Positions 25,522-62,784 of a stretch of DNA of 64,000 nt are shown piece by piece. Positions within the stretch are counted from its first letter, which is position 1. The number at the start of each line of letters is the position of its first letter. The position numbers and the translations under genes are program-made. Under the pieces are notes generated by a model that worked only from the letters and a program-made list of their open reading frames with translations, had not been told where the DNA came from and did not search any database. The stretch spans positions 1 to 64,000 of the forward strand of contig CAJXCD010000005.1 of NCBI GenBank assembly GCA_913051545.1, read 5' to 3'. This stretch comes from an uncultured Chloroflexota bacterium. GTDB taxonomy: Bacteria; Chloroflexota; Dehalococcoidia; Lucifugimonadales; CAJXCD01.

Positions 25522-27381
25522 TTACTTAAGTACACGCGAATCACCTACCCGTCGAGTGACACCTTTATGGTCTAAATGCTCCATCAAGGCCAAGGCATAT
25601 TTCCTAGAGGTACCAAACATGTCCCTTACCTCACCAACAGTAATTCCGTTTGCCTCTCGAATGTGAGTAGTAATCCTTTCTACGATTTTGGAATAATGAG
25701 TCGATGGAAATACTATCTCATCATTAACCTTTACTACTCTACCTTCATCTGCAAGCAAGGCGAGTATATCAGGATCTAAATACAAGTCCGTTGGTGGCGA
25801 AAATGGATCATATTCCAACGATTTAATATAATTCGCAGCTGATTCGGATTGAACACTATTAAGAGATCTCTCGTGACTAGGAATTCTAATAAACAATCCT
25901 TCATCTACAATAATTTCTTCCCTGAACAGTCGTAACACAACAAGGGTGAACACTTGATGAGGCAATTCCAAAAAATTCCTCAACTGCTCTTTAGGCAGAC
26001 CTAATTCTAAAGGATGATTATTATGGTACTCTCCCAGATACTTACACACCTTTCCAATGAGGAGTGACCATCCTCCCGATGTGTATAAGTATTTTTCTTG
26101 AACATCGGATCCTGACAAAACTACAACAAGCCCTGAAGAAGTCATGTTTTTAATAAGAAAATCGACATCGGACTGCGCGAAATTTACTGCCGTTCCTACA
26201 GAATGTGACGTTGTGGGCTCAGACAATTGAATAACACTGCTTATGATCTCAATATCAGAGCCATTCTCCATGATTTCAAGATGATGTATTAAAGATTCTT
26301 GCTTTCTCTGATGCCGACGTCCTTTTGAATCAACAACGACTCCCCCTCCTAAAGTCCTATTATTCGATCTTATTATGAAACGATCACCTTTAACTACAAC
26401 CATAGGATTGTCAAATTTAAGCTGAGCCCAACCATATTCCCCCGGAATCACGCTATCCGTTTCAAGTAGTCTTAGCCGAGCGATGGTTTCCGTTGCTCCA
26501 ATATGAACTGTCACAAACATGTTGTGTCTAACCGAACGAGGAGAATTGCTAATTACCTTGAGATGAACATCTATAGCTATAGTAGTGCTCAGCCATCCAC
26601 TAGAAGAAAGAACATCACCCCTTTCAATTTGATCGTGTGAGACTCCCGACAAATTAACAGCTACTCGAGACGCTGGTCCAACTCGATCTAATTTCTGATT
26701 GTGCGTTTGCAAGCCTCTAACGCGGGCCTTATTGCCTTTAGGCAGGAGTTCAATTTCTTGACCTTTATCCAGGAACCCATCTATCAACGTACCAGTAACA
26801 ACTGCACCAAATCCGGGCATTGTAAACACCCTATCTATTGGTAATCTTGGTCGTCCTAGGTCTCTCTTTGTAACAGAGTTGTGCAAAGAGCTGGCAATAT
26901 GTGCAGCAACTTCCTGGACTCCATCTCCGGTCACTGCAGAAACTGTAAGAATGGCAGAATTACGTAAAGTAGTGTCGGCTATAAAAGACTCTACCTCTTC
27001 TACCACTAATCCGAGCCACTCTGAATCAACGAGATCTTTTTTAGTAATAGCTACAAGTCCAGAATTAACATTTAATAGCTCGAGAATATCTAAATGTTCC
27101 TGAGTTTGAGGCATTATCCCTTCATCAGCAGCTACAACCATAATTGCTAGATCTATACTTGCTACACCAGCAAGCATATTGCTTATAAATCGCTCATGAC
27201 CCGGAACGTCGACAATGCTAACTTGATTGCCGTCTGTAAGTGTGAGGTCAGCAAATCCTAAATCAATACTTAACCCCCTATCTTTTTCTTCTTTGAGACG
27301 GTCAGTATCAATTCCAGTTAACGCCTGAACCAGAGTGGATTTCCCGTGATCTACATGGCCTGCTGTGCCTATTACGTACAA
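25522..27381 (-). CDS. selB: Selenocysteine-specific translation elongation factor SelB
   Basis: MYVIGTAGHVDHGKSTLVQALTGIDTDRLKEEKDRGLSIDLGFA, VDVPGHERFISNMLAG, with C-terminal winged-helix region (VGEVRDMFGTSRKYALALMEHLDHKGVTRRVGDSRVLK). Confidence 0.96.
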   Translation of the reverse strand: MYVIGTAGHVDHGKSTLVQALTGIDTDRLKEEKDRGLSIDLGFADLTLTDGNQVSIVDVPGHERFISNMLAGVASIDLAIMVVAADEGIMPQTQEHLDILELLNVNSGLVAITKKDLVDSEWLGLVVEEVESFIADTTLRNSAILTVSAVTGDGVQEVAAHIASSLHNSVTKRDLGRPRLPIDRVFTMPGFGAVVTGTLIDGFLDKGQEIELLPKGNKARVRGLQTHNQKLDRVGPASRVAVNLSGVSHDQIERGDVLSSSGWLSTTIAIDVHLKVISNSPRSVRHNMFVTVHIGATETIARLRLLETDSVIPGEYGWAQLKFDNPMVVVKGDRFIIRSNNRTLGGGVVVDSKGRRHQRKQESLIHHLEIMENGSDIEIISSVIQLSEPTTSHSVGTAVNFAQSDVDFLIKNMTSSGLVVVLSGSDVQEKYLYTSGGWSLLIGKVCKYLGEYHNNHPLELGLPKEQLRNFLELPHQVFTLVVLRLFREEIIVDEGLFIRIPSHERSLNSVQSESAANYIKSLEYDPFSPPTDLYLDPDILALLADEGRVVKVNDEIVFPSTHYSKIVERITTHIREANGITVGEVRDMFGTSRKYALALMEHLDHKGVTRRVGDSRVLK

Positions 27382-61407: not shown

Positions 61408-61505
61408 CTCTTCTGGCTCAAGAATACAAAGCCACTAACAACCATAAAGATCCTTTAACGTATAGTTTGTTATGAACCGTAGACCCGCCAAAAGAGGTGA
61501 TGATA

Positions 61506-61739
61506 ATGTCTTCGACAGAAAAAATGGTAGTCTACACCCACCCAGATTGCTCGTATTCTGATTCACTAAAGGAAACTTTGGACTCGTCTGGGATAGAATA
61601 TATTGAAGTGAATCTAGCACTTAACCCGGAGGAATGGAAAACATTAGAAAAAATTACTGATGGTAAACGTACGACGCCCGTAACAGTAGAAGGGGCTATC
61701 GTAACAGTGGGCTTCAACGGTTTTGGCTGAACTTATTAA
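61506..61739 (+). CDS. Putative UXX-star-type glutaredoxin-like selenoprotein; in-frame TGA (61728-61730) proposed as selenocysteine
   Basis: MVVYTHPDCSYSDSLKETLDSSGIEYIEV...RTTPVTVEGAIVTVGFNGFG-[TGA]-TY-stop. A SECIS-like hairpin follows directly, and selB is in the same window. Confidence 0.75.
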
Positions 61740-61759
61740 ATAGGACCGTCGGTCCTGTT
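61739..61759 (+). promoter_or_regulatory. Candidate bacterial SECIS element
   Basis: AATAGGACC-GTC-GGTCCTGTT: 9-bp stem including one G-T. The loop starts with G, 17 nt after the TGA. Confidence 0.6.
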
Positions 61760-61773
61760 AGCGTCCAATATCT

Positions 61774-62784
61774 TCACTTTCCTTCTGTAACCCGCGTCCT
61801 GTCAAGATACTCTTCAACCTGTTCCATACTGGGCATTCCTGCTGTATCACCTTTCTTAGTACATGTGAAGGCACCGCAGACATTTGCAATTCTAAGTGCA
61901 TAATTGATGATGTGATTGCGATAGAGTGGCTCCAGATTGAAAAAATCGCTGAATTGAATATCACGGAGAATTGATCCTAAAAACCCTGCCATAAAAGCAT
62001 CCCCAGCCCCTACAGGTTCTACCACATTAACAGTATAGCCTGGTTGAGATTTTACAGAATATCCATCAAAAGCAACTGCTCCAGCAGAACCAATTGTTAT
62101 TATTACAATGCCATTGTTCAAATTCTGAAAATGACGAGCATATTCGATTGCTGTCCATCGCTTTCCCCATACAATCTCTGCTTCATCATGACCAATTTTC
62201 AACACTTTAGAAGCCCTTATTATTCTCTCGAAAAATGGTTTGGCTAAATAAGGTTCCCACAACTGGTTTCGAAAATTAACGTCAAAACTTATAGGGATAT
62301 CAAACTGTCCTGCATAATTGAGAACTTCCAACACAGTCTCACTACAAGAATCACTTAATGCTGGAGTAATACCCGTAACGTGTATCAGATCACATTCCTC
62401 AAGATACGGTAATACATCTTGATATTCCAATTTGGAAGCTGCACTACCCTTCCTGTCATAAGTTTTAATGTGAGTGCCATCATCAAGGTGATTAAGGTAG
62501 CAAATTCCTGTCTTCTCTCCTGGGTATTTAGGAGCAGAAAAATGCGTCTTCCCATGTAAATCTCTGAGTATTAAATCAGCTGCTTCATCGTTGCCTAACC
62601 TACTAACCCAAATCGTTTCCACGTCTTTTAATCCTAATTTATTGAGGCATATCAAAAAATTTGACTCGGCACCAGCACAGTATTTGGAATAGCTCCCACC
62701 ATCAATATAAGGGCCCGTGTAATCAGCATTGTAAAGAACCATTGTTTCACCAAATGTGACAACTTTCACAATACATATCTCCAA
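61774..62784 (-). CDS. PfkB-family carbohydrate kinase
   Basis: VVTFGETMVLYNAD..., AGAESNFLICLNKLGL, VVEPVGAGDAFMAGFLGSIL. Confidence 0.9.
   Translation of the reverse strand: MEICIVKVVTFGETMVLYNADYTGPYIDGGSYSKYCAGAESNFLICLNKLGLKDVETIWVSRLGNDEAADLILRDLHGKTHFSAPKYPGEKTGICYLNHLDDGTHIKTYDRKGSAASKLEYQDVLPYLEECDLIHVTGITPALSDSCSETVLEVLNYAGQFDIPISFDVNFRNQLWEPYLAKPFFERIIRASKVLKIGHDEAEIVWGKRWTAIEYARHFQNLNNGIVIITIGSAGAVAFDGYSVKSQPGYTVNVVEPVGAGDAFMAGFLGSILRDIQFSDFFNLEPLYRNHIINYALRIANVCGAFTCTKKGDTAGMPSMEQVEEYLDRTRVTEGK

Follow-up and report, generated by a model that had tools for sequence, protein, structure and literature searches.

A divergent UXX-star family 2 gene of a Chloroflexota bacterium, very probably read through UGA as selenocysteine, with its SECIS hairpin beyond the coding region

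Does the short glutaredoxin-like gene in this window (the whole stretch of 64,000 nucleotides analysed here) end at its apparent TGA stop, or is that codon read as selenocysteine (Sec)? Read directly on the plus strand, the frame runs from the ATG at 61506 to GGC-TGA (61728–61730) and on through ACT-TAT to TAA (61737–61739). With the TGA translated as U, the product is MSSTEK...VGFNGFG-U-T-Y. A sequence-only reading of this DNA had described the same continuation past the TGA, ACT TAT TAA with the tail GFNGFG-U-T-Y, and had proposed a UXX-star selenoprotein with Cys or Sec three residues from the end. Both descriptions match the sequence: the tail is GFGUTY-stop, and homologues have U or C in the same column. 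Very probably, then, the gene goes on through its apparent stop via selenocysteine insertion. The features of the locus are collected in Table 1.

Table 1. Features of the UXX-star gene, its SECIS hairpin and the selB gene on the same contig.
Feature	Coordinates	Strand	Basis
UXX-star family 2 glutaredoxin-like selenoprotein gene	61506..61739	+	77 aa with TGA as Sec, plus TAA stop; NF041211, NF041212 and Pfam Glutaredoxin scores
Shine-Dalgarno-like GAGGTGA, 5 nt ahead of ATG (putative)	61494..61500	+	Sequence reading; inference
N-terminal active-site motif C15-S-Y-S18 (CxxS)	61548..61559	+	Translation; CxxS in 70/70 Sec homologues
Predicted Sec-encoding TGA, Sec75, third residue from C-terminus	61728..61730	+	Homologues: TGA or TGC/TGT at column; stop two codons on in 65/66
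True stop codon TAA	61737..61739	+	Sequence, translation
SECIS hairpin, 9-bp stem and GTC loop	61739..61759	+	Fold -10.7 kcal/mol; best of 2493 TGA; covariation in 49 relatives
Apical loop G-U-C	61748..61750	+	G at loop position 1 or 2 in 66/66 distinct Sec homologues
selB, selenocysteine-specific elongation factor, same contig	25522..27381	-	TIGR00475, 339.2 bits over joined pieces, cut-off 242

The family assignment turns on the read-through. NF041211, the model of UXX-star family 2, is credited by a review (PMC13188914) to Haft and Tolstoy 2025; its curated threshold is 100 bits. Translating TGA as U gave a score of 103.8 bits over model positions 1–71 of 71, whereas the protein cut at the TGA scored 96.1 bits, under the cut-off; among the NCBI UXX-star models proposed as a check, this one was passed solely with the read-through. 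The protein also passed NF041212 (82.3 bits, cut-off 66) and Pfam Glutaredoxin (40.4 bits), and scored well under both cut-offs for families 1 and 3 (NF041114 and NF047338). The family 2 motif, GxGU with Sec third from the end, is present. UXX-star is an already curated family, cited in a 2026 review (PMC13188914), and the locus is a new, divergent member of the known family 2. The earlier expectation that automated callers would truncate the protein holds for plain ORF callers, but curated models for the family already exist at NCBI.

A protein scan of genome contigs with the single sequence returned just one distant relative; family-model searches found the homologues. Sampling 396 genomes of the class gave 33 that passed the family 2 cut-off; across the order, 196 of 250 had a match at an E-value of 1e-15 or better; the GTDB family contains this genome alone. 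We extracted 99 homologous genes together with the DNA that follows them. At the column where the window has TGA, the codon is TGA in 70 of them (66 distinct Sec forms) and TGC or TGT in 29, the Cys homologues that the sequence-only reading had suggested looking for. The stop codon follows exactly two codons past the Sec TGA in 65 of the 66 distinct Sec forms, while the Cys forms are looser and end 2, 3 or 4 residues after the column.

In 14 of the 66 distinct Sec homologues, TGA doubles as the true stop two codons past the Sec TGA (L040, L041, L045, L049, L054, L055, L059, L136, L143 and others). Such genes should therefore have two UGA codons, nine bases from each other, with different readings; the first alone is at SECIS spacing. 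Several f3-family relatives (L040–L054) have an apparent tRNA-Asp gene (GTC anticodon, identified by eye) close behind the SECIS hairpin.

The window hairpin is formed by the arms AATAGGACC (61739–61747) and GGTCCTGTT (61751–61759) around the loop GTC (61748–61750). Its stem starts at the last base of the TAA stop codon and has nine pairs, one of them T-G, with a folding energy of about -10.7 kcal/mol; the distance from TGA to loop is 17 nt. The 9-bp stem and G-first loop first described at this distance agree with these coordinates and pairings. Among the 2493 TGA triplets on both strands of the window, the one at 61728 ranked first for a hairpin with a G loop at the spacing of a SECIS, so the hairpin is more than chance. 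Published bSECIS constraints specify a loop of 3–9 nt on a stem of 4–16 bp, a G at loop position 1 or 2, a UGA-to-loop distance of 16–37 nt and a minimum free energy at or below -7.5 kcal/mol (PMC13188914). With its 3-nt loop GUC, 9 bp, 17 nt and -10.7 kcal/mol, the window hairpin lies within all four constraints, in line with the general bacterial SECIS spacing and loop pattern earlier claimed for it.

The hairpin goes with the Sec codon. All four constraints hold in 53 of 66 Sec forms vs 2 of 29 Cys forms, and the Sec forms outside them mostly have AT-rich or short stems. A hairpin exceeding 95% of shuffles was found in 59 of 66 distinct Sec forms and in 1 of 29 Cys forms. In every one of the 66 Sec forms, the loop of the best hairpin starts 17–23 nt past the TGA, whereas loop positions in the Cys forms are scattered.

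A hairpin without covariation had been named in advance as evidence against a SECIS; covariation turned out to be strong across the order. We measured it in a gap-free alignment of 49 relatives, with the window left out. Its anchor was a five-position loop with G in second place, so the alignment has an invariant G by construction. All seven stem pairs showed changes on both sides, and 90.1% of cells were paired, compared with 59.7% in shuffles, a pairing that is partly selected, since the best stem determined how each sequence was placed. The covariation score was 0.834, against 0.245 in shuffles (0 of 500 reached the score) and no more than 0.282 when the pairing partner was shifted along the alignment. 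The comparison with Cys forms and the fixed distance to the TGA are the safer evidence for the SECIS.

Could the TGA instead be an ordinary stop, with the protein ending at GFG and the hairpin acting as a transcription terminator? The sequence-only reading had itself raised this caveat, and a PfkB-type kinase gene (61774–62784, minus strand, assigned by inspection) does converge on the UXX-star gene, with the hairpin between the two; the truncated protein, too, is still family-like at 96.1 bits. However, a terminator scan gave no match at 61739–61759 on either strand, and we rejected an intrinsic terminator (GC-rich hairpin plus T run) at this position. Homologues, moreover, have either Cys or TGA at the column, and 65 of 66 Sec forms stop exactly two codons on. 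The hairpin accompanies TGA rather than Cys; compensatory changes alter its sequence, but its distance to the TGA is kept. We consider an ordinary stop followed by a terminator very improbable.

If the UGA is read as Sec, the decoding machinery is to be expected in the genome, here a 1.86-Mb draft that is 92% complete. selB is in the window, as had been claimed (Table 1). Of the three further components that the sequence-only reading had listed for a search of the rest of the genome, selA was found on contig C2 (526.8 bits) and selD on contig C3 (L022, 380.9 bits), each over its cut-off; the draft yielded no tRNA-Sec. SelD has a CAG-U-A motif with an in-frame TGA, so the UXX-star protein is not the only apparent selenoprotein of the genome. 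Another selD with an in-frame TGA, on the 3.2-kb contig C31 (L031), runs off the contig end; it could be a duplicate or stem from contamination.

In the draft, the top matches to the tRNA-Sec model RF01852 were tRNA-Ser and tRNA-Leu, the best of them a tRNA-Ser, and a pattern search gave random-looking matches, none of them convincing. tRNA-Sec was found in 36 of 40 relatives searched, including every one with TGA forms; of 16 relatives whose locus was examined, 13 have it immediately downstream of trxA (loci L105–L126). That trxA is absent from the draft as well: the sole thioredoxin match there has 270 residues, is of a different type and has no tRNA in its neighbourhood. Because the gene adjoining tRNA-Sec in relatives is also missing, the trxA and tRNA-Sec locus was probably lost from the draft through an assembly gap. 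The missing tRNA would also fit a former selenoprotein gene, truncated or decaying in a genome that has lost tRNA-Sec and with it Sec decoding. Such a history seems to us most unlikely: SelA, SelB and the Sec-type SelD all have intact frames, the SECIS stem keeps its 9 bp, and the absence of the neighbouring trxA points to a gap in the assembly.

The UXX-star selenoprotein candidate is thus supported by HMM read-through, the Cys column, the bSECIS fit, covariation, and selA, selB and selD. Computation shows the reading frame, the family membership, the Sec/Cys column, the covarying hairpin and the three Sel proteins. With high confidence, we take the product to be a selenoprotein of 77 residues that belongs to UXX-star family 2 and has a glutaredoxin fold, the UGA at 61728–61730 being read as Sec via the SECIS. 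Actual insertion at this predicted Sec codon, which we infer, would begin with SelB, carrying Sec-tRNA(Sec), binding the hairpin with its G-U loop 17 nt downstream of the UGA. The bound SelB would lead the ribosome to decode the UGA as selenocysteine, and termination would follow two codons past Sec, at UAA; the SECIS would thus lie outside the coding region.

What might the Sec do? An N-terminal Cys is present in 99 of 99 homologues. Within the order, the Sec forms have CxxS in 70 of 70 and the Cys forms CxxC in 27 of 29. Because the second N-terminal residue of the Sec forms is Ser and not Cys, we predict that the invariant Cys15 and the C-terminal Sec75 form a reactive pair (selenenylsulfide/selenolate-thiol). 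Judged from sequence, a Cys15–Sec75 redox pair is likely but unproven. On the tree, five Sec/Cys changes are needed, and the independent, well-supported differing pairs agree in direction but are too few for significance.

A strict rule, Sec with CxxS and Cys with CxxC, lacks significance on the tree and is weakened by relatives outside the order, in both directions; two of these outside relatives have Sec together with CxxC.

Sec75 might instead be a ligand of a metal or organometal rather than the redox partner of Cys15, a role compatible with Sec insertion. Sec in UXX-star families may be a metal ligand (PMC13188914). The glutaredoxin fold, the N-terminal Cys in every homologue and the CxxS of all Sec forms fit the predicted Cys–Sec pair, and we regard the ligand role as possible rather than probable.

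More broadly, and as a tentative proposal, the single N-terminal Cys and the C-terminal Sec may form a catalytic pair across the family, with a second Cys tending to arise where Cys replaces Sec, an active-site rewiring on selenium loss. Under the same tentative proposal the SECIS would lie past the stop as a rule, and in TGA-xxx-xxx-TGA genes spacing alone would separate the Sec-UGA from the stop-UGA. Taking the TGA as a stop loses the family's true C-terminus and its most reactive residue. Sec and Cys relatives with a covarying SECIS offer a clean natural experiment on Sec-to-Cys replacement, and the same relatives bear on SECIS elements beyond the stop and on how the ribosome discriminates two UGA codons at a distance of nine bases. 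What the locus and its relatives add is modest: evidence of covariation, a SECIS behind the stop, the split between CxxS and CxxC, and genes with tandem TGA codons.

How does the locus compare with known systems? According to the review, bacterial SECIS elements lie in coding regions (PMC13188914). The window SECIS follows the bSECIS consensus, as in E. coli fdhF, but sits beyond the coding region. It presumably also differs from that of fdhF in having no bulged U.

Glutaredoxin and NrdH (PF00462, TIGR02194) share with the window protein an N-terminal active-site Cys, a TxP region and, in a weak structure model, the order beta-alpha-beta-alpha-beta-beta. That single-sequence AlphaFold2 model has a pLDDT of 67, too weak to gauge the Cys15–Sec75 distance; among PDB matches to it none was significant, the best being NrdH (E 0.06). 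Unlike glutaredoxin, the window protein carries the Sec tail in place of the third helix, stopping about where that helix would start in the glutaredoxin fold. The Uxx-star subfamily NF041212 and families 1 and 3 (NF041114, NF047338) resemble it as glutaredoxin-like proteins with a C-terminal Sec or Cys; it falls under the cut-offs of families 1 and 3. The closest likeness is to UXX-star family 2 (NF041211), with which it shares a full-length model match, GxGU, Sec third from the end and the occurrence of both Sec and Cys forms; it differs in being divergent (103.8 bits at a cut-off of 100) and in its tail, U-T-Y.
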